NCBI GenBank assembly: GCA_030614785.1
Contig: JAUWTJ010000045.1
Location: 1 to 33,034, forward strand
DNA from: Alphaproteobacteria bacterium
GTDB lineage: Bacteria; Pseudomonadota; Alphaproteobacteria; M2410
Direction: 5' to 3'
DNA length: 33,034 nucleotides
Under the pieces are notes generated by a model. That model ran no database searches. It worked only from the letters and a program-made list of their open reading frames with translations, and was not told the DNA's origin. The translations under genes were made by a program, and so were the position numbers. Shown here piece by piece: positions 6,339 through 31,449 of the stretch (within the stretch, counting starts at the first letter, position 1; the number at the start of each line of letters is the position of its first letter).

Positions 6339-6809
6339 TCATTTGGCCCCCTCGGCCACCAGTTCTATTTCGCGTAAGACGCCTTGCCCTGCGTCTGGTT
6401 CGTCTGCATTGATCTCGATCGTCTGAACCTGGCTCGCCGGTTTCGGCCGGGTAAGATCCACATGCAGGAGACCGTTCTCGAGGTCTGCTCCGGCAACGTC
6501 AATACCGTCGGCCAGAACGAAGGACCGCTGAAACTGACGCCCCGCGATACCGCGGTAGAGCCAGGTTCGCTCGGTATCATCGACCTGCTTGCCACGAATA
6601 ACCAGTTGATTGTCCTCAACGGTCACCGACAGGTCCTCTTTGGAAAACCCCGCAACGGCAAGGGTAATCCGAAGACCACCATCATCAAATTGCTCAATAT
6701 TGTAGGGCGGATAGCCTTCCTGTGGGTGCTTCGCAACCTGGTCGAGCAGGCGTTCGATCTGGTCAAAGCCCAGCAGCAGGGGCGAATTGAAATAGCTTTG
6801 GCGAGTCAT
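6339..6809 (-). CDS. Small heat-shock protein, Hsp20/IbpA family
   Basis: A 156-residue alpha-crystallin-type chaperone. The N-terminal motif SPLLLGFDQIERLLDQVAKH and PPYNIEQFDDGGLRITLAVA are typical of IbpA-like proteins. The alpha-crystallin domain spans about residues 35-130, with the conserved L-x-G-x-GIAGRQFQRSF-type region (YRGIAGRQFQRSFVLAD) and ENGLLHVDL near its end. An I-x-I element (TIEIN) follows in the tail and normally caps neighbouring subunits in the oligomer. Such proteins hold unfolding proteins for later refolding by DnaK/ClpB. A heat-shock promoter lies about 80 bases upstream. Confidence 0.95.
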   Translation of the reverse strand: MTRQSYFNSPLLLGFDQIERLLDQVAKHPQEGYPPYNIEQFDDGGLRITLAVAGFSKEDLSVTVEDNQLVIRGKQVDDTERTWLYRGIAGRQFQRSFVLADGIDVAGADLENGLLHVDLTRPKPASQVQTIEINADEPDAGQGVLREIELVAEGAK

Positions 6810-6889
6810 AAGACTGAGCAGCCCTCCATAAGAAGCGACAAACCGGCGGATCCTCCCCAGACTTTGCGGCGAAGGAGCCGTTACTCCCC

Positions 6890-6919
6890 CAATGTGGCGA
6901 TTTTCGCCATACTTTCAAG
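6890..6919 (-). promoter_or_regulatory. Sigma-32-like heat-shock promoter for hsp20-DUF1150
   Basis: Read on the - strand: a -35 CTTGAAA (6913-6919), a 15-base spacer and a -10 CCACATTG (6890-6897). This is a close match to the sigma-32 consensus CTTGAAA / CCCCATNT. It leaves an untranslated leader of roughly 75 nt before the hsp20 ATG. Confidence 0.7.
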
Positions 6920-7076
6920 GGATTTAGCCGAATTGAGGGCCGAACACTCCTGGTCTCGGATTTCCGGGCAGCGCACAGGCGTTCGGCTCCAACATTCCGG
7001 AATTGCCTTTCGGGGTCCAAAGGCGTATGGGGCGGGGCATCAAAACTCATTCGCCAGGAACCTTGAACCAGCGCCT

Positions 7077-8936
7077 ATGGTCCAGCCTCAGCATCAAAAG
7101 ACATCCCCAAAACCGGTCATCTGGCTGCAGGATCGTATTGGCGGGAAAATTCGCCGCAAGCATTTCCGCGGCTTTGAGGGTGAGATCCGCTGCGACGATC
7201 CACAAACCTTTGCTGACACGGCCCGCGAAGTAGAACGGTTGCGATCTGAAGGCAAGCATCTTGCCGGCTTCATTTCCTATGAGGCAGGCTATCTCACCGA
7301 AGACAGCCTTGCCCGGCTTCTGCCAGAAGCGCGTGATGTCCCCCTGGTCTGGATGGGCGTTTTTGACACGGTTGAGGAAGAAATCGTCGCACCGCGCTCG
7401 TCAAATCCGCCAGCCGGACAACCAGCCAGGCAACAAGTGAGCGCCATCGAAACTCTTGAGGCAGAACTCACCCGCAAGGACTACACCGGCGCGATCCACC
7501 GCACCCTCGACTACATCAAGGCAGGCGACATCTATCAGGCAAATTTCACGTACCGCTCTTCTTTTAACTGGTCCGGTGACCCGCTTGATCTCTTCGAGAG
7601 TTTAACAGCAACCCAGCCCGTCCCCTATGCCGCTTACATCGACACCGGCCAGGAAGTCATCCTTTCCCTGTCACCGGAACTCTTCTTCGATATTTCGAAT
7701 GGCATCATCAGCACACGTCCCATGAAGGGCACGGCACGGCGGGGGCGCACGACCGAAGAGGATAGTCGCCTTGCCGACGCCCTGGCGCGCGATCCCAAGG
7801 AACGCGCCGAAAATCTCATGATTCTCGACCTGATGCGCAACGACCTGTCCCGCATCACCGCGCCCGGCAGCGTCAAGGTACCCGAACGGTTCACCGTCGA
7901 GCGCTATCGCACGGTACATCAAATGACCTCCAGTGTTGAAGCGCGCCTCCAGCCCGGCACAGATTTCCCCGCGCTACTGGGGGCCCTGTTCCCATGCGGG
8001 TCCATAACAGGCGCACCCAAGGTACGCGCCATGGAAATCATCTCCGAGCTCGAGCACAGCCCGCGCGGGGTCTATACCGGCGCAATCGGCCATCTGGATC
8101 CCGGCGGAGACGCCGCATTCAATGTCGCCATCCGCACCTTGACCCTGAAACCTCGAGATGAGACCAGGCAAGAATGGCGCGGCAGTGTCGGGGTTGGCGG
8201 CGGCATCGTCTACGACTCCACGCCCGAACGGGAATTTGAAGAATGCCAGATCAAGATTGCTTTCCTGGACAGGCCCAACAAAGAGCCCGTCCAGCTTATC
8301 GAAACCATGAAAGCCGAGGCCGGTGATATATTTCTTTTGCGCGAACATCTTGCCCGCCTCGAAGATTCCGCCCGCTATTTCGACTTTCCCTGCGCGACCG
8401 AAACCATAAGAGACTCTATTGAAGCCAGAGCCGCGTCGCTTGGTGCGGGGCCCTGGCGCCTGCGCCTTCTGCTCAGCGCCGACGGTTCTTTCGATTTCAC
8501 CGACGCGCCCCTGGAGGCCCGCCAGGCACCGCTGCGCTTTACCATCGCATCAACGCGAGTCTCCTCGGATGACCTGTTCCTCTTCCACAAAACCACTCGC
8601 CGCGCCCTCTTTGACGAAACCCTGACAGCCGAGGCCGCCCGCTGCGGTGCCGATGAAGTGCTTTTCCTCAATGAACGCGGCGAGCTGACGGAAGGCTCAA
8701 GATCCAACATCTTCCTTCGCAAGGATGGTGTCCTCCTCACGCCGCCGCTGGCGAGCGGCTGCCTGCCGGGAACCTTGCGTGCCCATCTGCTTGCCAATCC
8801 GGGTACTCAAATTGTCGAGCAGGTACTAACCCTCGCAGACCTCGACGCAGCCGATGAAATCCTCTTCGGCAACTCCCTCCGCGGTCTCGAAAGCGCAAGT
8901 CTCCTCTCTGAGGATTTGCGTCTTGCCGGGGAATAG
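7077..8936 (+). CDS. pabB: Aminodeoxychorismate synthase I / aminodeoxychorismate lyase fusion (PabB-PabC)
   Basis: A 619-residue fusion. Residues 1-395 are a chorismate-binding domain: AGDIYQANF (149-157), SPELFF, PMKGT (216-220), and the FPCGSITGAPKVRAMEII block (306-322). The Lys of P-x-KGT is characteristic of aminodeoxychorismate synthase; anthranilate synthases have Ala there. Residues from about 405 are a class IV aminotransferase fold (IETMKAEAGDIFLLREHLAR), with probable PLP lysine Lys505 in HKTTRR and ELTEGSRSNIF. Together the domains make p-aminobenzoate for folate; the glutaminase PabA is not in the window. The frame stays open 693 bases upstream across hsp20. The ATG at 7077 is chosen because homologous sequence begins soon after it, although its ribosome-binding site is weak (AGGAA about 16 bases upstream). 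Confidence 0.93.
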   Translation: MVQPQHQKTSPKPVIWLQDRIGGKIRRKHFRGFEGEIRCDDPQTFADTAREVERLRSEGKHLAGFISYEAGYLTEDSLARLLPEARDVPLVWMGVFDTVEEEIVAPRSSNPPAGQPARQQVSAIETLEAELTRKDYTGAIHRTLDYIKAGDIYQANFTYRSSFNWSGDPLDLFESLTATQPVPYAAYIDTGQEVILSLSPELFFDISNGIISTRPMKGTARRGRTTEEDSRLADALARDPKERAENLMILDLMRNDLSRITAPGSVKVPERFTVERYRTVHQMTSSVEARLQPGTDFPALLGALFPCGSITGAPKVRAMEIISELEHSPRGVYTGAIGHLDPGGDAAFNVAIRTLTLKPRDETRQEWRGSVGVGGGIVYDSTPEREFEECQIKIAFLDRPNKEPVQLIETMKAEAGDIFLLREHLARLEDSARYFDFPCATETIRDSIEARAASLGAGPWRLRLLLSADGSFDFTDAPLEARQAPLRFTIASTRVSSDDLFLFHKTTRRALFDETLTAEAARCGADEVLFLNERGELTEGSRSNIFLRKDGVLLTPPLASGCLPGTLRAHLLANPGTQIVEQVLTLADLDAADEILFGNSLRGLESASLLSEDLRLAGE

Positions 8937-13436: not shown

Positions 13437-14519
13437 CTAAAGCAAATCCCGCTCTTCAATCTCATTTGACCCTTCAGGCAGGCTCAACATAAAACCGTCC
13501 GTACCGATCTTGATCGATCCGTCAAACCGCTCCAGGGCATCTCCGAGAAAGAGTTTGTCGAAAAAGCGCGGCAGCGGCGGGACGATGTGATAGAGCAGAA
13601 GGTAGTCGACCCCCGCGTCCGCCGCAATGTCCGCCGCCTGTTCCGGGCTGGTGTGATAATTCAGAATATCATGCATGATTTTCGCCGTGCCTTTGGCCCC
13701 GAGGGTGCGCGCCCTCGCCTCAAAGCGCTCGATTATGACCGGCTGCAGGGCTTCATGCACCAGTACATCAGCGCCCTTCGCCATCGCCGTAACATTGGGC
13801 GAAGGTGATGTATCGCCGCTGATGACGACAGAGCGGCCCTTGTAGTCGAACCGGTAGCCCACCGCCGGCGATATGGGTGCATGGTCGACGTTGAACGCCG
13901 TGACCGTCAGACCATTGGCTTCAAGAATAACCTGAGAGGCCATCGGGTCGCTCCCCAGGTCATAGGGAACGGCGTGCCCGCCGTTGCCAGAAGGCGGCGC
14001 GATGCCTTCGCCATGATGAGCGGTCCGATAGAGCGCATCCAGCGCGTAGGCCTCACGCAAGCCGTTGATCACGCGTTCAACCCCTGAAGGTCCATAAACC
14101 GGTACCGGCTCTGTATGCCGGGCCTGGACCCAGCGGTTCATCATCAATTCACCCAGCCCGTCGATGTGGTCAGAATGAAAATGGCTGAGAAAAATCCCCT
14201 TGATAGCGCCCCTTGGCAAGCCCATGGACCCGAGGGTTCCCGGTGACCCGGCGCCGCTATCGACAATATAGAGCGCGTCCCCCGCAATGACGAAAACACA
14301 AGCCGCGCGGCGGTCCCGATTGGGAAACGGCCCCGCCGACCCGCACAGCCCGACGTGCAGCCCTTCGGGGAATTCTGCGATGATATCGCGCCCCATGTTC
14401 TGCTCAAGCTGCCGATCAATCAGCGCCATCGCGATCGGCTTTTGAAACGCCTTGACCCCGATGATGCAGGCGAGGCCCAGCCCCGCAACGCCCGCCAGAA
14501 CTCTCATACTGCGCTTCAT
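13437..14519 (-). CDS. Exported metallo-beta-lactamase-fold hydrolase
   Basis: A 360-residue protein. The start at 14519 follows a good ribosome-binding site (GAGAGG) and begins an N-terminal hydrophobic segment (VLAGVAGLGLACIIGVKAF), a signal peptide or anchor. The zinc motif is HFHSDH (113-118) in GIFLSHFHSDHIDGLGEL. Further metal ligands are probably in VISGDTSPSP, DVLVHEA and the late LLLYHIVPP. The layout resembles RNase Z/arylsulfatase (AtsA)-like members of the superfamily rather than beta-lactamases. The reaction is unknown. It is divergent from a sulfatase gene, with 172 bases between the start codons, so the two may share regulation and possibly a substrate route. Confidence 0.85.
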   Translation of the reverse strand: MKRSMRVLAGVAGLGLACIIGVKAFQKPIAMALIDRQLEQNMGRDIIAEFPEGLHVGLCGSAGPFPNRDRRAACVFVIAGDALYIVDSGAGSPGTLGSMGLPRGAIKGIFLSHFHSDHIDGLGELMMNRWVQARHTEPVPVYGPSGVERVINGLREAYALDALYRTAHHGEGIAPPSGNGGHAVPYDLGSDPMASQVILEANGLTVTAFNVDHAPISPAVGYRFDYKGRSVVISGDTSPSPNVTAMAKGADVLVHEALQPVIIERFEARARTLGAKGTAKIMHDILNYHTSPEQAADIAADAGVDYLLLYHIVPPLPRFFDKLFLGDALERFDGSIKIGTDGFMLSLPEGSNEIEERDLL

Positions 14520-14627
14520 TTCACACCTCTCAAAAGGGCTGTTCGCGACCGGTTCCCTTCCCGGTCTTTCTGCACAGGCCCGGAGACAATCGACGGTCGA
14601 CAGAACGAGACCACCGGGACTAATCTG

Positions 14628-14658
14628 TTGACTCAAGTCTATTGTTTTGGCGTTATGA
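14628..14658 (+). promoter_or_regulatory. Putative promoter for the sulfatase gene
   Basis: A -35 TTGACT (14628-14633) followed after 17-19 bases by a -10-like CGTTATGA (14651-14658). It lies just upstream of a perfect palindrome and 34 bases before the sulfatase ATG. The -10 is only a partial match. Confidence 0.45.
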
Positions 14659-14659
14659 G

Positions 14660-14676
14660 TGTCAATTGTTTTGACA
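14660..14676. promoter_or_regulatory. 17-bp perfect palindrome, probable operator
   Basis: TGTCAA-TTGTT-TTGACA: two exact 6-bp arms around a 5-bp centre. It sits directly after the likely -10 of the sulfatase promoter and before its ribosome-binding site (AGGAG at 14679-14683). That is where a repressor dimer of the TetR/MarR/GntR kind would block transcription. No such regulator gene lies in the window. The repeat could also form a weak hairpin in the leader. Confidence 0.55.
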
Positions 14677-14691
14677 GGCAGGAGTTGGTAT

Positions 14692-16497
14692 ATGGCGCGA
14701 CGAATAAAGTCCGAACTTGTGGTTGCAAGTGCAGCAATTATAGCCTCAGTCGTGAGCAACCCGCATCGTGCGCAGGCGGAAGCAATCGCGCGGCGCCCCA
14801 ACATCGTCCTCATCCTCGCCGATGATCTTGGCTATACCGATATTTCCACCTTCGGCGGTGAAATCTCGACACCCAATATCGCCGCCCTGGCGCAGCAAGG
14901 TATCAGCTTCACCAATTATCACACCGCCGCAAGCTGCGCGCCAACGCGCGGCATGATCCTCACCGGTGTCGACAGTCACCGCAACGGCGTACCCAATATT
15001 CCCGAAGCTCTGCCACCGGAACAAAAGAAACACGCCAACTACCAGGGCGTGCTCGGCGATAATGTAGTGACCGTCGCCACGCTCCTCAGAGAGGCCGGCT
15101 ATCACACCTATATGACTGGCAAATGGCATCTTGGCAAAACGCCGGAGCTTTTGCCCTCGGCGCGCGGCTTTGATCGCACTATCGCCATGGCCGATACCGG
15201 CGCCGACAACTGGGAACAAAAACCCTATCTGCCAATTTACAAAAAGGCCAACTGGTTTGCCGACGGCAAGGAGCACACTCTGCCGGACGACTTTTACTCG
15301 TCAAAGTATTTCATCGACAAATCAATCGAGTTCATCGAGTCAAATCGCGCCGACGGAAAACCGTTCTTTTCCTACATCCCCTTCCAGGCCGTTCATATTC
15401 CCGTCCAGGCTCCAAGGGAATTCACCGAAAAATACATCGGCACCTATGACGAAGGCTGGACCGTCATGCGCGAGCGCCGCCGCCAGGCCGCGGTACGCCT
15501 TGGTATTGTCCCGCCCGAGACCGAAACTGTCATCACCCCGGGAACCGGCGACTGGGAGGCGCTCACAGAAGAGGAAAAGCGCTATCAGTCAAAACGCATG
15601 GCGGTCTATGCCGGCATGGTCGATGCCATGGACACCCATATCGGCCGCCTCATTGCCTACCTCAAGGAGACCGGCGAGTATGACAACACGATTTTCATTT
15701 TCACCTCCGACAACGGGCCCGAAGGCTCTGAACCTGCCGGCCCGAATGGCAGTGTTCTCCTCGAACGCTGGATGAAAAAAGTCGGCTACAACACGGATTA
15801 TGAGACGCTCGGCGAAAAAGGCAGCTTTAACGCCATCGGCCCGAGCAACGCGACAATCGCCGCCTCGCCGCTGGCCTGGTACAAATTCTATTCCGGTGAT
15901 GGCGGCATGCGCGTGCCGCTGGTTATCTCGGGACCGGGCATCACCGCGCAGGGCAAATGGAGTAACGCGCTCACTTATGTCACCGACATCACACCAACTA
16001 TTCTCGGCTTTGCCGGCGTGCGCGATCACGGCGGCACCTTCGCGGACAGGCCCGTCGAGCCCATCATCGGCAAGGATCTTGGCAGCCTGACCAAAGGGGC
16101 AGCAACGGCCGTGCGCCGGAGCGACGAGCCTATTGGCTATGAGCTCGGCGGCAACCGGGCCTTGCTCAAGGGTGATCACAAGATCACATTCAATCGCGGT
16201 CCGCGCGGCGACAGCACCTGGCATCTGTTCAATATAGCGACAGATCCCGGCGAAGCGCGCGACCTCGGCGAAACGCACCCGGAGCTTCTTGCCAATATGA
16301 TCGCCGACTATGAGACCTGGGTCACGGACAACAACGTTCTCCCGGTGGCCGACGACTACGATCAGGTCAGACAGGTCTTCCTCAACGGTATGAAACAGAT
16401 CTATGGTCCCCGGATCAAACTGGCAGCAATCGCCATCCTGGCCCTGCTTGGACTTGGTGGCTTCTGGTTCATCAGGCGGCGTCATGCTCGTCAATAA
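14692..16497 (+). CDS. Membrane-anchored periplasmic sulfatase
   Basis: A 601-residue sulfatase. The ATG at 14692 follows CAGGAG and begins a signal peptide ending near AQA (about residue 29). Metal ligands are in NIVLILADDLGYTD (Asp44, Asp45). The formylglycine motif is CAPTR (Cys82 to Arg86) within AASCAPTRGMILTG, so this is a Cys-type enzyme needing a maturase. YMTGKWHLGK and FIFTSDNGPEG supply other active-site residues. The last 27 residues form a transmembrane helix (LAAIAILALLGLGGFWFI) with a basic end, so the enzyme is probably tethered to the inner membrane, facing the periplasm. The substrate (aryl, sugar or steroid sulfate) is unknown. The epoxide-hydrolase-like gene follows beyond the palindromic element. 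Confidence 0.92.
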   Translation: MARRIKSELVVASAAIIASVVSNPHRAQAEAIARRPNIVLILADDLGYTDISTFGGEISTPNIAALAQQGISFTNYHTAASCAPTRGMILTGVDSHRNGVPNIPEALPPEQKKHANYQGVLGDNVVTVATLLREAGYHTYMTGKWHLGKTPELLPSARGFDRTIAMADTGADNWEQKPYLPIYKKANWFADGKEHTLPDDFYSSKYFIDKSIEFIESNRADGKPFFSYIPFQAVHIPVQAPREFTEKYIGTYDEGWTVMRERRRQAAVRLGIVPPETETVITPGTGDWEALTEEEKRYQSKRMAVYAGMVDAMDTHIGRLIAYLKETGEYDNTIFIFTSDNGPEGSEPAGPNGSVLLERWMKKVGYNTDYETLGEKGSFNAIGPSNATIAASPLAWYKFYSGDGGMRVPLVISGPGITAQGKWSNALTYVTDITPTILGFAGVRDHGGTFADRPVEPIIGKDLGSLTKGAATAVRRSDEPIGYELGGNRALLKGDHKITFNRGPRGDSTWHLFNIATDPGEARDLGETHPELLANMIADYETWVTDNNVLPVADDYDQVRQVFLNGMKQIYGPRIKLAAIAILALLGLGGFWFIRRRHARQ

Positions 16498-25469: not shown

Positions 25470-25498
25470 TTGTCCCTCTGCGGCAGACTTCCTATAGT
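25470..25498 (+). promoter_or_regulatory. Sigma-70-type promoter upstream of the multiheme cytochrome gene
   Basis: TTGTCC (25470-25475), a 17-base spacer and TATAGT (25493-25498). It is oriented toward the GTG start 28 bases downstream, leaving a short leader that contains the GGAG ribosome-binding site. Confidence 0.65.
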
Positions 25499-25525
25499 GA
25501 GTCGCAATCAACGGAGAACTCGAGA

Positions 25526-27819
25526 GTGCGCCTTTCCATTCCTGTTACCGTTTTTGTGACCCTGGCCGTACTCATGATGGCCACGTTTGATCCGGCAAGA
25601 GCAACCCCGTCTCCTGTTGCATTCACCGGGGCTGACGCGGCGACCTGCGCTGAATGCCATGCGGCAGCCGTTAAAGCCTGGCAAGGCTCCCATCACGCCC
25701 GCGCCATGCAGCATGCCAGTCCCGCGACAGTCCTTGGCACCTTCGAGGATCAGGTGCTGACCCACGCAGGCGAACACACTCTCCTGTCACGGCAAGGCGG
25801 CAAATACTTCGCATCAGTCTCTTCCCCCGGCAGCAAAGCCGCCGCGCAGCAATTCGAAGTGCTCTACACCTTCGGCATCACCCCCCTGCAGCAATATCTC
25901 GTGGAGACCGAACCTGGCCGCCTGCAAGCGCTCCCCTGGGCTTGGGATGCTCGCGCCGATGCTGAAGGCGGCGGGCGCTGGTATCATCTTTATGACGGCG
26001 ACACCGTGCCGCCCGGCGATCGGCTGCACTGGAAAAGTCCCTTACAAAACTGGAACGGGATGTGTGCAGATTGTCATTCGACCGCACTTGCCCGGAACTA
26101 CGATGTCTCCGGGGATCACTTTGCAACCACCGCCGCCGCCGTCAACATCTCCTGCGCCTCGTGCCACGGCGACGCCGCAGATCACCTCCTTGCGATGCAG
26201 CAGGAGACCAGGCCTCCATCCGGCAGCTTCGACGATGTCATTGATTTCTCGATTCGGCCACCTCGCGCTTTGAACGGGCCGCCGCAGAGGCCACCGCCAC
26301 GAACCTGGGCGCGCCTCACCAGGGCCGTGAGATCGAGGTCTGCGCCGCGTGCCATTCACGCCGAACACCGCTGACAAGTAAAATTGACCCTGCCGCCCCC
26401 TTCCTCGACCAGTTCACCCCTGATCTGCTGGATGAGGGCCTCTATTACCCCGACGGGCAAATCCAGGATGAGGTCTATGTCTTGGGGTCCTTCATGCAGA
26501 GTAAAATGGCGGCAGCGGGCGTCACCTGCAGCCATTGTCACGACGCCCACGCCCTGACCCTGAAGCGCGGCGGCAATGCCCTGTGCACATCGTGCCACGC
26601 GCCGGAGGTTTTCGACACATCAGACCACCACCGTCACCTGCCCGCCTCCAAAGGTGCGCGGTGCGTCTCCTGTCACATGCCTCAGACCACCTATATGGGG
26701 ATCGACGCGCGCCGCGATCACAGCTTCAAGGTGCCACGACCGGATCTCTCGGAAAGCCTCGGCACACCCAATGCCTGCACCACCTGCCACGCCGACATGA
26801 CCAACAAGGCGGCGGCAACGCATATTGCTGCATGGCACGGGCCCCGCGAGGCCGACAATCGGGCCGCCCAAACCCTGGCCGCCGCGAGGGCTCGCAATCC
26901 GGCGGCCAGAGCGCCCCTCCTCGCGTTCATAGAGGATGAAACCCGCCCGGCCATCACCCGTGCGACCGCTCTCAGCCTCATCGCCAATGTGCCAGACCGC
27001 GCCCTCATGACTGTCGCAACGACGCGTCTGAACGACACCGATCCCCTCATCCGCATTGGAGCCATTCGTGCCCTGACAATCCTGGCGCCGCAGTACCGCG
27101 TGGACGCGCTCGCTCCGCTCCTCGACGACACCGTCAAATCAGTCCGCATGGAAGCAGCAACAGCGCTGCAAGATATGCCGGCAAGCGCCTTTTCAGGCGA
27201 TGATCGCATCCGGTTCAAAGCCGTCCTTGCGGAGCATCTCAAGGCCAACGATGAAATCGCATGGCGCGGCGAAGGCCGTCTTAATCGTGGCCTCATTCTC
27301 CAGGGCCAGGGCGAGCTCGATACGGCGGCCCGGCACTACAAAAAATCAATTGAAATCGACCCCGCCTTTACCCCGTCCTACATCAATCTCTCCGAGCTTT
27401 TGCGCTCCGGTGGCTCTGAAGAGGAGACACAGGCAACGCTCCTTCAAGGTCTTGCAGCCGCGCCCGATGACGGCGCGCTGGAACATGCCCTCGGCCTTGC
27501 CCTCATCCGCGCGGACAAGACGGAAGAGGCCATGGCACATCTTGCAAGAGCCACTGTTCTCGCACCGCAAACCTCGCGCTTTGCCTACGTCCATGCCGTC
27601 GCACTACATTCTGTCGGCAAGACACCCGAAGCTCGCGCCCGCCTGCAAGCCGCTCTCGTGCACCATCCATATGACCCGGACTTGCTCACCCTGGGGTTTT
27701 CGCTCGCCGATGAAACAGGCGACCGTGGCGCCATGCTCCGCTATGCCGGGCAGCTGGCAGAGATTTTTCCCGATGACCCGAACTGGCCAGACCGCCCCAT
27801 ACGCCTGCAACAAAACTGA
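25526..27819 (+). pseudogene. Eight-CXXCH multiheme cytochrome c with HEAT/TPR-like tail, frameshifted
   Basis: Two frames together encode one protein of about 763 residues. Frame one starts at GTG 25526 with a signal peptide (cut near ARA-TPS) and carries CAECH, CADCH and CASCH; it then runs off-frame to a stop at 26374. Frame two takes over near 26251 (DSATSRFERAAAEAT) and carries CAACH, CSHCH, CTSCH, CVSCH and CTTCH. Helical repeats resembling HEAT follow (about 26890-27220), then TPR-like repeats (AARHYKKSIEIDPAFTPSYI) to 27819. The join needs one missing base near 26249-26254. Eight hemes fit the periplasmic octaheme cytochrome class, often involved in nitrogen or sulfur oxyanion reactions; the exact reaction is unknown. 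A sequencing error is as likely as a true mutation. Confidence 0.85.
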
Positions 27820-27842: not shown

Positions 27843-28895
27843 TCAGCAACACGTACCGGCAAGGTCGTCAACTGCGTGAGCGCTTTGAAAAGGTATCGCC
27901 TTGCCACATCCGGGGAAAATTCCGTAGTGGGCGGAAAAATCACCCATAAAGTCAAAATGCTCGGCAAACCGACTTTCTTTCAACATCAGCCAGGTGTTTC
28001 CGCAAACCGGAAAGACACGGCCCTTCTCGATCGCGTGATGACTATCAAGCACAAAGGTCTCTTCAAGCTGTGCGATGCCGCCTTTGTAGATCACGGCCTG
28101 ACCATAGTCTTCGCAATCACCTTCAAGGGTGGCAATGTTAAAAAGCCTGTAGGTCGATGAGAAGAACGATATATCTCCGAGCTTTTTCTGCAGTACCGGG
28201 TTATCCACACCAAGCGGGCGGTCCGTCATCAGGCGCGGGTCACGAAACCCGGTGCTTTGTGCAAGGGTCAAAAAGTCATTCCAGTAAAGCGCGCCGCCAA
28301 GGCACTCGCCATAGAGAACGGGATCATTCTTGAGAGGCTCGGGCAATCGCCTCGAGGCATAAACATCAGAAAAGTAAAACTCGCCACCTGGCTTAAGAAG
28401 GCGGCGCACGCCATCCAGAACCGCCCTTTTGTCCGTTGAAAGATTGACAACGCAATTTGAGACGACGACGTCAAAGCTGTTTGGTTCAAGATCGAGATCA
28501 CAAAGGTTTTCGATCATGCCGTCAATGAACCTTGTATTGGCTTGATCGTAACCGAATTTGGATCTGTGCCAGTCTTCATGAGCCCGGGCAACCTCAAGCT
28601 GCTCAAGGGTCATGTCAACACCGACAACCTCGCCGGCTTCACCGACCATCTGCGACAACACATAGACATCCCGGCCGGCGCCGCAGCCAAGATCGAGCAC
28701 ACGTGCGCCTTCGATGGCTGGCGGGGCGATAAGTCCGCAACCGTAGTATTTGGCGAGAACTTCACCATGCACATTGGACAGGAGGGTCTTTTGCCAGGCG
28801 GGAATGTCATCAGGAGTGCAACACGCATCCGTCTGCAAATCCGCCGAACTTTGAAGAGTCTTGCCGTAGTATTCCTTGACGATGTCGTGCTGCAT
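27843..28895 (-). CDS. arsM: ArsM-like SAM-dependent methyltransferase
   Basis: A 350-residue methyltransferase. The SAM site is VLDLGCGAGRDVYVLS (66-81), followed by VVGVDMTLEQLEVAR. Cysteines sit where arsenite methyltransferases need them: TDACC (25-26), YYGCG (53), VSNCVVNLS (148), YGECLGGAL (198), and a C-terminal Cys-Cys pair (349-350). NCVVNLSTDKRAVL and SDVYASRRLP match the ArsM family. It would methylate trivalent arsenic with SAM. It is divergent from a glycosyltransferase/radical SAM/glycosyltransferase operon, with 201 bases between the start codons, and probably acts with it. A role on another metalloid or substrate is possible, since no arsR or arsenic efflux gene is in view. 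Confidence 0.82.
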   Translation of the reverse strand: MQHDIVKEYYGKTLQSSADLQTDACCTPDDIPAWQKTLLSNVHGEVLAKYYGCGLIAPPAIEGARVLDLGCGAGRDVYVLSQMVGEAGEVVGVDMTLEQLEVARAHEDWHRSKFGYDQANTRFIDGMIENLCDLDLEPNSFDVVVSNCVVNLSTDKRAVLDGVRRLLKPGGEFYFSDVYASRRLPEPLKNDPVLYGECLGGALYWNDFLTLAQSTGFRDPRLMTDRPLGVDNPVLQKKLGDISFFSSTYRLFNIATLEGDCEDYGQAVIYKGGIAQLEETFVLDSHHAIEKGRVFPVCGNTWLMLKESRFAEHFDFMGDFSAHYGIFPGCGKAIPFQSAHAVDDLAGTCC

Positions 28896-28968
28896 TCAAT
28901 TTTTCTTTCCTGATATCTGTTGATCCCGGTATACCTGTAACCAGACGGATGGAAGAGTCACGCCGGAA

Positions 28969-28980
28969 CACGATTTCGTG
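28969..28980. promoter_or_regulatory. Perfect 12-bp palindrome in the divergent promoter region
   Basis: CACGA-TT-TCGTG, placed between the arsM-like gene and the arsenosugar-type operon, 74 bases upstream of arsM and 116 upstream of the operon start. A regulator could bind here and control both directions. The sequence does not match the common ArsR operator pattern ATCAA-N6-TTGAT. Confidence 0.4.
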
Positions 28981-28993
28981 ATTGTGATACATT

Positions 28994-29024
28994 TTGCATC
29001 AGCAGCGCGCCTCGACCTTATACA
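28994..29024 (+). promoter_or_regulatory. Putative promoter with 19-bp spacer for the radical SAM operon
   Basis: TTGCAT (28994-28999) and TATACA (29019-29024) are separated by 19 bases, longer than the usual 17. Such spacing is typical of promoters twisted by MerR-family activators, but no clear dyad lies in the spacer. The -35 overlaps a near-perfect dyad GATACATTTTGCATC (28986-29000). Confidence 0.4.
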
Positions 29025-29096
29025 GTATCGTCGCGCCTTTAGAGCCTGAGGATTTATCTGATGGCCGTTTAATTGAGGAACAGGATAACAGCAGGA

Positions 29097-29825
29097 ATGT
29101 CTGAAACAAACCACGGGGTCAAAATTGACAGTGATAAAAACCAAAGCGATCAAACCTGTCTGGTAATATTCTGTAAGCGACCGACCCTGTTGCAGGGCAA
29201 ACAACGTCTGGCAAAAACCATTGGCGCAGAGCAATGTTTGATGTTTGCAGAATCATTCCTGAAGTGTGCGCTGGAAGATGCCTGTGAATGGCCAGGGCCT
29301 GTTGTTTTGTCTCCTTCATCCCCGGAGGATACAGAATGGGCGAGCGGATTGCTGGCGAGGGACTGCAGGGTCATGGTTCAGCCGGAAGGCGGTCTGGGAC
29401 ATAGAATTCAGGCGGTCGATCACCAGCTTCGTGCCGAGGGGTACAGCAAAATTGTCTTCATAGGAACCGATGCGCCCGCGCTGCGACCCGATCATTACGA
29501 AGAGGCCCACAGGAAAATTGATCTTGTCGATGTTGTGCTTGGCCCGGCATCTGATGGCGGAGTGGTGATCATGGGGTCTTCCACGCCCTGGCCTGATTTA
29601 CTGCCTCTGCCCTGGAGCACTGCACGTCTGGGAAAGGCCCTGACGACAGCATGCCGCCAACACGGCCTTGATGTAAAAACGATTTCCCCGGGCTATGACA
29701 TCGATATTGAAGCTGATCTCCTGAAATTGCAGCAGGATCTTTCAGATGATCTTCGCCCCGCACGGCGGCATCTCTACCAGCAGCTCCGTGAATTCTTGCG
29801 ACAGGGTGGGACCAGATATGCTTGA
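29097..29825 (+). CDS. TIGR04282-type glycosyltransferase (DUF2064)
   Basis: A 242-residue GT-A-like protein. ATG 29097 is preferred; AGGA lies 11 bases upstream, while a TTG at 29073 would give 8 more residues. The family signatures are LVIFCKRPTLLQGKQRLAK near the N-terminus, QPEGGLGHRIQ, and VFIGTDAPALRPDHYEEA with VVLGPASDGGVVIMG, the nucleotide-sugar region. This matches DUF2064/TIGR04282 proteins, annotated as arsenosugar biosynthesis glycosyltransferases. K-R-L at positions of the usual K-T-R-L is a conservative difference. It overlaps the radical SAM gene by 8 bases, so translation is coupled. The donor and acceptor are unknown. Confidence 0.85.
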   Translation: MSETNHGVKIDSDKNQSDQTCLVIFCKRPTLLQGKQRLAKTIGAEQCLMFAESFLKCALEDACEWPGPVVLSPSSPEDTEWASGLLARDCRVMVQPEGGLGHRIQAVDHQLRAEGYSKIVFIGTDAPALRPDHYEEAHRKIDLVDVVLGPASDGGVVIMGSSTPWPDLLPLPWSTARLGKALTTACRQHGLDVKTISPGYDIDIEADLLKLQQDLSDDLRPARRHLYQQLREFLRQGGTRYA

Positions 29826-30768
29826 GCTTCCAAAAATAACGCCTGAGGAAACCTCTCCTTTCCCCTCCCCGGGAGAAGACTGGTACACGACCCCGACCGG
29901 AGATGCGCGGGGGTATATTGACACTCATCGCCTGAAGGAGCTTTGGTTCCATACCGGAACGGTGTGTAACCTGGCCTGTGATTTCTGCCTCGAGGGATCC
30001 AAGCCGGGAGATACACGGCTCGGCCTGGTCAAGCTGGCTGACGTCAAGCCCTATATAGAAGCGGCGCTGGGGCTGGGAGTGGAGCAATTCTCTTTCACAG
30101 GCGGGGAGCCTTTTCTGGCCAAAGACATTGTGAAAATCTTGACCCTGGCGTCTTCACATCGACCTTGCCTGGTCCTGACAAATGGAACCGAACCCTTGTT
30201 GCGGCGCTTCGCGGAACTGGACGTCTTGCGGGAAAGCGCGAACCCGGTTTCGTTCCGCATCAGCCTTGATCACTACAAAGAAGACATTCATGACAAGGGG
30301 CGCGGCAAAGGAAGTTTTTCCAAAGCGCTTGAGGGGCTCAAACTGCTGAGCGATATGGGATTTGCAATTTCGGTCGCACGCCACCTGAAACCTGATGAGG
30401 ACGTCGAGGCCACGAGCGCGGCCTTTGCCAGACTTTTCAGGCAAAACGGGTTGCCTGAAGATCTTCATATAGTGGCTTTCCCGGACTTCGCAGGTCCAGG
30501 ATCATTGCCCGATGTTCCGTTTGTCACCACAGCCTGTATGACCCGCTACCAGACCGAAGAAAGCCGCATGGAGTTCATGTGTGCTTTTTCAAGGATGATC
30601 GTCAAGCAGGCGGGAAAAATGCGGGTCTATGCCTGCACTTTGGTCGATGATGATCCCGCCTATGATCTGGGACCGGCTCTGGATGAGAGCCTGAAGGAAC
30701 GCATCAGCATGAAGCACCATCGTTGTTACAGCTGCTTCGCCTATGGCTCATCGTGCAGTGAACTCTGA
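29818..30768 (+). CDS. Radical SAM protein with Cys-rich C-terminus, arsenosugar-type operon
   Basis: A 316-residue radical SAM enzyme. ATG 29818 has GGGTGGG upstream and overlaps the previous stop; the longer frame lies inside that gene. The [4Fe-4S] motif is C50-x3-C54-x2-C57 in GTVCNLACDFCLEG, and FTGGEPF (93-99) is the SAM-binding GGE motif. The C-terminal part has Cys255, VYACTLVDDD (Cys273) and RCYSCFAYGSSCSEL (Cys303, 306, 313), suggesting an auxiliary cluster of the twitch/SPASM kind. Canonical ArsS has a different Cys-rich domain, so this is probably another enzyme filling the radical SAM slot between the two glycosyltransferases. The substrate, perhaps a methylated arsenical, is inferred. 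Confidence 0.88.
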   Translation: MLELPKITPEETSPFPSPGEDWYTTPTGDARGYIDTHRLKELWFHTGTVCNLACDFCLEGSKPGDTRLGLVKLADVKPYIEAALGLGVEQFSFTGGEPFLAKDIVKILTLASSHRPCLVLTNGTEPLLRRFAELDVLRESANPVSFRISLDHYKEDIHDKGRGKGSFSKALEGLKLLSDMGFAISVARHLKPDEDVEATSAAFARLFRQNGLPEDLHIVAFPDFAGPGSLPDVPFVTTACMTRYQTEESRMEFMCAFSRMIVKQAGKMRVYACTLVDDDPAYDLGPALDESLKERISMKHHRCYSCFAYGSSCSEL

Positions 30769-31449
30769 ATGATGAGTTTGAAGAATGTATCAATAATCAT
30801 CCCGTTGGGACCTGACGAGGATCAGGTGACACCGCTTCTGGATGACCTGGCTACCTTGCCAGCGGAAACGCAGATTGTTCTGGTATCCTGCGACAACGCC
30901 GGTGACCCGGTCCTGCATAAGGGTCGTGTCATGATGATCAACGCAAAGCAGGGCAGAGCCTGCCAGCAAAACGCAGGCGCAAAGGCAGCCACCGGCAAGT
31001 TCCTCTGGTTCCTGCATGCAGATTCGCGCGTTACACCACAGGTTCTCCACGCCCTTGATGTCTCCCTGGATGAAGACCCCGATGCGCTGCACTATTTTCA
31101 TTTGAAGTTTGACGAGGACGGACCTCGGCGCATGCGCCTGAATGAATGGGGCGCCCGGTTTCGCTCCCGGGTTCTCGGGGTCCCGTTTGGGGATCAGGGC
31201 TTCTGTCTGGACAAAAGCGCTTTTGACACAATTGGCGGCTTCCCCGAACATGCTCCTTATGGAGAAGATCATCTGTTGATCTGGTATGCGCGCCAGGCCG
31301 GAGTAAAACTAAAATGCACAGGAACGGCACTTCAGACCAGTGCTCGAAAATATCAGCAGCAAGGATGGGGCGCACTAACGCTCAAATATCAAGCTCTCTG
31401 GATAAAACAGGCCCTGCCCGAAGCATACAAACTGATCCGCAACAAATAG
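30769..31449 (+). CDS. TIGR04283-type family 2 glycosyltransferase
   Basis: A 226-residue GT-A glycosyltransferase. It starts directly after the radical SAM stop (TGA-ATG). SIIIPLGPDEDQVTPLLDDL opens the fold. GRACQQNAGAKAATGKFLWF and FLHADSRVTPQVL hold the donor-binding DxD-like HAD-S element, and GDQGFCLDKSAFDTIGGFPE and YGEDHLLIWYARQAG follow. This is the pattern of TIGR04283 proteins, repeatedly found with TIGR04282 in arsenosugar loci. It probably attaches a sugar to the product of the methyltransferase and radical SAM steps, but neither donor nor acceptor can be read. It ends 104 bases before the convergent acyl-CoA dehydrogenase gene. Confidence 0.85.
   Translation: MMSLKNVSIIIPLGPDEDQVTPLLDDLATLPAETQIVLVSCDNAGDPVLHKGRVMMINAKQGRACQQNAGAKAATGKFLWFLHADSRVTPQVLHALDVSLDEDPDALHYFHLKFDEDGPRRMRLNEWGARFRSRVLGVPFGDQGFCLDKSAFDTIGGFPEHAPYGEDHLLIWYARQAGVKLKCTGTALQTSARKYQQQGWGALTLKYQALWIKQALPEAYKLIRNK

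Follow-up and report, generated by a model that had tools for sequence, protein, structure and literature searches.

OcwA of Thermincola potens is a nonaheme terminal reductase of the cell wall. Heme 5 and heme 2 are described as its two hemes with an open distal site, and the protein ends in a C-terminal three-helix bundle (PMC6703420). It reduces nitrite slowly, both reduces and oxidises hydroxylamine and did not reduce sulfite (PMC6703420). The OcwA paper also proposes that octahemes derive from nonahemes via loss of heme 2 or heme 5, and it treats cytochrome c554 as a four-heme protein (PMC6703420). TPR proteins have been named as separate genes beside multihemes (PMC10376724). Among the open-licence PMC papers we noticed none on a HEAT/TPR octaheme cytochrome, in which an eight-heme domain and a HEAT/TPR solenoid form one chain; such proteins make up a widespread and little studied family, uncharacterised as far as our literature search reached. 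Here we examine a member of this family encoded in an alphaproteobacterial draft genome (3.86 Mb in 148 contigs, 99.11% complete), within a stretch of 33,034 nucleotides that is called the window. Its gene is interrupted by a one-base change of frame, and the features discussed below are collected in Table 1.

Table 1. Features of the broken cytochrome gene and of other genes in the window.
Feature	Position	Strand	Basis or remark
5' part of broken cytochrome gene	25526..26374	+	GTG start, hemes 1-3
3' part of broken cytochrome gene	26245..27819	+	hemes 4-8, then HEAT, then TPR
One-base frame change, variable linker between hemes 3 and 4	26245..26253	+	homologue alignment, codon usage
Heme motif 1, CAECH	25646..25660	+	motif count
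Heme motif 2, CADCH	26063..26077	+	motif count
Heme motif 3, CASCH	26153..26167	+	motif count
Heme motif 4, CAACH	26341..26355	+	motif count
Heme motif 5, CSHCH	26527..26541	+	motif count
Heme motif 6, CTSCH	26584..26598	+	motif count
Heme motif 7, CVSCH	26662..26676	+	motif count
Heme motif 8, CTTCH	26776..26790	+	motif count
HEAT repeats	26914..27171	+	PF13646, E 1.1e-11
TPR repeats	27280..27765 (end approximate)	+	PF07719, PF13428, PF14559 and others
Sigma-70 promoter-like match	25470..25498	+	consensus only, 9/12, upstream of broken gene
GGAGA, putative ribosome-binding site	25513..25517	+	8 nt before GTG 25526; inferred from sequence
ArsM-like methyltransferase	27843-28895	-	beside broken cytochrome; score under curated cut-off
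TIGR04282 glycosyltransferase	29073-29825	+	score under curated cut-off
Radical SAM protein	29746-30768	+	part of the 27843-31449 set
TIGR04283 glycosyltransferase	30769-31449	+	score under curated cut-off
Sulfatase	14659-16497	+	PF00884; about 9 kb from broken cytochrome
Metallo-beta-lactamase-fold protein, RNase Z/GntH-like	13437-14813	-	adjoins window sulfatase
PabB (aminodeoxychorismate synthase component I) and aminotransferase class IV fusion	6384-8936		one frame

The 5' frame runs from the GTG to a stop at 26372-26374 and encodes 282 amino acids, with CXXCH motifs at residues 41, 180 and 210 and a tail that is out of frame from about 26249. Its N-terminus is hydrophobic and, judged by eye, resembles a signal peptide, and it matches Pfam family PF13435 (E 9.3e-9). 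The 3' frame is open over 524 codons with CXXCH motifs at residues 33, 95, 114, 140 and 178; it has no start codon near the break and, by eye, lacks a signal peptide. Between them the two frames contain 16 cysteines, every one within a CXXCH motif. A preliminary description made from the sequence alone had counted three hemes before the break and five after it and had noted a HEAT/TPR-like tail. The count is the same here, and the tail is recognised by Pfam, with PF07719 as the best TPR match (E 9.2e-9). The region upstream holds a sigma-70-like match; two such matches occur in the region, where shuffled sequence gives 0.4 on average. Scans of the window for Rfam families and tRNAs gave no hits.

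The two frames match the same homologues at adjoining positions, with E values down to 4e-83 and 0.0, so that the earlier view of them as one coherent protein holds; judged by these alignments they are one broken gene, beyond chance. An intact paralogue from the same genome aligns to 25541-26251 in one frame and to 26245-27813 in the next, its residues 16-252 matching the 5' part and 251-773 the 3' part, which therefore places the frame change at 26245-26253. A Viterbi scan of codon usage that used no homologue puts the switch at 26245/26247. The direction of the change corresponds to a deficit of one base (or an excess of two) compared with the relatives. The alignment of intact homologues, which the preliminary description had proposed as the way to place the missing base, thus located the one-base deficit that it had seen at the junction. 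The break aligns to residues 232-242 of a homologue from Shewanella hanedai (L032), whose structural model has pLDDT below 50 at residues 227-235. On that model it lies within or next to a loop of low confidence that separates hemes 3 and 4.

The paralogue, at C94, is a single frame of 773 codons with eight CXXCH motifs. It is 59% identical to the window copy over the 3' part and is not split at the break site. PF13435 finds these two genes and no third in the genome. They are sisters in a quick tree (SH-aLRT 100), where the branch of the window copy measures 0.40 vs 0.22 for the paralogue, the careful search being unfinished. For comparison, 200 homologous loci were confirmed in GTDB genomes and the best 80 of them were used. 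A single frame of more than 640 amino acids with at least seven CXXCH motifs is present in 79 of them, and the 80th (L041) is cut by the end of its contig. No split like that of the window copy occurs among these best 80 of 200 loci. This answers the earlier question of whether homologues are naturally split at this point, and a naturally split family was set aside. The family occurs in several phyla, and its members carry the annotation 'tetratricopeptide repeat protein' or 'cytochrome c3 family protein'. Matches occur in 149 plasmid records, and in 133 of these the match extends over 80% or more of the query. At E 1e-50 the family is present in 7 of 387 sampled genomes of the class, this one included. 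None of the three genomes of the same taxonomic family (80 to 87% complete) has a member at 1e-40, and therefore there is no close intact allele for comparison. At E 1e-3, 45 of 59 relatives match; these were left out of the count of family members, being mainly TPR-only among the matches listed. In the single-contig genome G012, locus L114 (7667-8665) holds only the C-terminal part of the family protein, with three CXXCH motifs, and upstream of it there is no homologous stretch at E 1e-3. It is probably an older remnant and not a functional split, which fits decay of the family elsewhere in the class as well. The four Desulfobacterales-type loci L094, L099, L102 and L109 carry CX4CH in place of CXXCH as their eighth heme motif.

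The nature of the intact protein was approached through the Shewanella hanedai homologue, and what follows on fold describes that model rather than the window protein. The full model (731 amino acids, mean pLDDT 90.7) has a heme domain followed by a long helical solenoid; the heme domain modelled alone has a mean pLDDT of 86.7. The best structural match of this domain is OcwA (PDB 6i5b), with Z 19.9 and rmsd 3.2 over 324 residues at 22% identity. It is followed by an undecaheme S-layer cytochrome (Z 11.7, rmsd 3.5, 264 residues), MccA (Z 8.6, rmsd 4.7, 282 residues) and NrfA-type enzymes (Z 6.7 and lower; best row 125 residues, rmsd 2.8). Absence from these match lists, as of HAO among others, does not exclude a fold. 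On this model the heme domain is OcwA-like. A profile match to OcwA has E 1e-24, and OcwA has nine hemes whereas the family has eight CXXCH motifs. In the profile alignment these pair with OcwA motifs 1-4 and 6-9, motif 4 falling in a weak stretch, and in our reading of the aligned sequences the missing heme would be OcwA's fifth. The cytochrome, for which a classification by heme order had been suggested, has in this reading an OcwA-like heme domain without OcwA's fifth heme. Since OcwA's heme 5 is absent, heme 2 becomes a candidate open site in the family. The family further differs from OcwA in that the three-helix bundle is replaced by the HEAT/TPR solenoid.

The c554 family, PF13435, matches the N-terminal part, whereas the window protein has eight hemes and a solenoid. 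The octaheme sulfite reductase MccA/SirA (PDB 4rkm) shares only a weak fold similarity at the Z value given above. Its heme motif is long-spaced, CX11-17CH. No such motif occurs in the window frames, and 4 of 85 family rows have one while 81 have none. The NrfA-type CXXCK motif is absent from the window frames and from all 85 family rows. The tetrathionate reductase family octaheme cytochrome, TIGR04315, scores 13.8 bits with the 5' part against a curated cut-off of 375, and the 3' part is not listed. Compared with the intact HEAT/TPR octaheme family, the window copy has the same order of CXXCH motifs followed by the solenoid and differs by the frame change.

Conservation and models were based on alignments of 62 of the 80 fetched loci, from which near-duplicates, sequences cut by contig ends and genes missed by the gene caller were left out. 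Of the residues invariant in these homologues the window copy retains 54 of 55, and of those nearly invariant 42 of 45; the paralogue retains 55 of 55 and 43 of 45. Differences between the two copies at first, second and third codon positions are 0.324, 0.274 and 0.626 before the break and 0.311, 0.240 and 0.662 after it. On both sides the third positions show roughly double the differences of the other two, which argues that the entire protein was under selection until not long ago. The window copy shows no further stop or frame change, and this, together with the 54 retained invariant residues, indicates that the break is either recent or an error. Fourfold sites differ between the copies at 160 of 244 positions, and because the synonymous distance is thus near saturation, neither a dN/dS ratio nor a date for the break is given. 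The longer branch of the window copy fits a looser constraint on its sequence.

The preliminary description had offered recent inactivation or a sequencing error as the two explanations, which we judge to be the right pair, with inactivation favoured. If the sequence is in error, the gene is whole and the organism has two working OcwA-like HEAT/TPR octaheme cytochromes. This reading accounts for a single lesion in a gene that keeps all its heme cysteines and nearly all its invariant residues; the assembly is a draft of 148 contigs, and an assembly mistake would give an identical sequence. We place beside it a scan of 364,217 bases of the same genome (the window, L111 and 20 further stretches) for changes of coding frame on the same strand with at most 40 nt between the frames. 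The sign used was the upstream stop: ordinary gene boundaries have it at the switch itself, frame breaks at a random distance beyond. Forty-four close frame changes were found. The upstream stop lies more than 40 nt past the switch in one of them, the window cytochrome (126 nt); in the other 43 it lies at most 38.5 nt past it. The largest of these 43 distances, 38.5 nt, belongs to L136 (15069-16654), which reads as an ordinary gene boundary and could possibly be a frame break. The window itself was chosen for its break, and the count outside it is given separately: no comparable break in 331,183 bases, a zero that is weak given the power of the sign. Of planted single-base deletions, the frame change was detected in 161 of 200 (46 of 60 in an earlier run), and in 110 of 200 the distance from switch to stop exceeded 40 nt, so about half of such breaks would be recognised. 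The absence of a start codon near the switch was set aside as a sign, since most real frame breaks have one nearby by chance (45 of the 161 detected planted deletions had none); by it, a first count had left only the window without a start, and a slightly different counting window gave 2 of 44.

The absence of other breaks outside the window suggests that the assembly is not rich in such errors, and homopolymers of four or more are absent from 26190-26374; together these points favour a real change over an error. The moderate power of the scan (110 of 200) moved the odds slightly, that of inactivation from 0.64 to 0.62 and that of an error from just under one third to about one third. An error is thus a serious but less probable alternative, and with a probability of about 0.62 the window copy is a recently inactivated octaheme cytochrome gene, a young pseudogene. 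Its frame is broken relative to intact homologues, as in a pseudogene, and in place of the single continuous frame of the family it has two, so that it is a member by descent and not an intact one. Two further readings would keep the gene in use. Programmed -1 frameshifting at about 26245-26248 would yield a three-heme short form and the full protein. The direction is indeed -1, the last in-frame codon UUC is preceded by U so that the P-site tRNA-Phe could re-pair on UUU, and a slip at this point would give the spacing of the paralogue. The earlier remark that no slippery run is present stands, as 26190-26374 holds no in-frame X XXY YYZ heptamer. For three RNA windows at the site, the predicted fold is no more stable than in shuffled sequences (z -0.41, +0.61 and +1.65), there being no stable downstream structure among folds without pseudoknots (z -0.41 and +0.61). 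Neither the paralogue nor any of the best 80 of 200 loci, one of them cut by its contig end, is seen to be split here. Programmed frameshifting was accordingly rejected, as slippery heptamer, downstream structure and conservation are all missing, in line with its having been called unlikely at the outset; a slip of a single tRNA on U-UUC without a canonical heptamer, giving three-heme and eight-heme forms from one gene, is very improbable. Least probable of all is a functional fission in which both fragments are made and used separately. The motifs are kept in both parts, but the downstream frame has no ATG, GTG or TTG within 60 nt of the switch, and its first start, TTG 26482, lies after heme motif 4. 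Attachment of c-type heme requires an export signal, which the 3' part lacks by eye, and no homologue among the best 80 of 200 loci is so arranged.

The intact protein, which the paralogue still encodes, is probably an exported octaheme c-type cytochrome with an OcwA-like heme domain followed by a HEAT/TPR solenoid. If inactivation is right, the loss of one base in the flexible linker that follows heme 3 and precedes heme 4 would throw the reading frame off. Translation would then yield a fragment that carries three hemes and some 40 incorrect residues. Hemes 4-8 and the solenoid lack both a nearby start and a recognisable export signal, so that an eight-heme protein is not to be expected. The change would then be present in the organism and not in the data, and the loss may be tolerated because the paralogue remains.

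The surroundings of the intact genes offer hints on function. Neighbours were counted in flanks of up to 8 kb per side, less at contig ends, around the best 80 of 200 loci, and the Pfam identity of each neighbour group comes from one representative. A sulfatase lies near the family gene in 35 of 80 loci, MoxR in 23, a DUF58 protein in 23 and a VWA protein in 24. The end of the intact paralogue lies about 29 nt from a convergent sulfatase gene. The sulfatase of the window, about 9 kb from the broken gene, parallels this neighbour. Genes for cytochrome b and a Rieske protein precede the family gene in 10 and 9 of 80 loci. The order cytochrome b, Rieske, octaheme is found at L052, L057, L060, L078, L079, L094, L099, L102 and L109, in a group made up of Desulfobacterales and other former deltaproteobacteria, and the spacing from Rieske to octaheme is at most 21 nt in 7 of 9. 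The family may relay periplasmic electrons, which in one lineage would come from a bc-like complex, and its solenoid may serve for docking; the intact proteins could be electron carriers of the periplasm or reduce a small substrate. Elsewhere in the window, the gene set at 27843-31449 is tied by NCBIfam to arsenosugar biosynthesis. In the PabB fusion at 6384-8936, the frame is open over a long stretch ahead of residue 257 that probably does not code for protein.

The finding itself is ordinary either way, most likely a recent gene loss or, less probably, a data error, and not a new mechanism. The window gene should be annotated as frameshifted, and in metabolic reconstructions C94 should stand as the one clearly working copy. 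If the sequence is in error, the organism has two working OcwA-like HEAT/TPR octaheme cytochromes. For the family, a make-up without heme 5 could test the nonaheme-to-octaheme proposal of the OcwA paper (PMC6703420).
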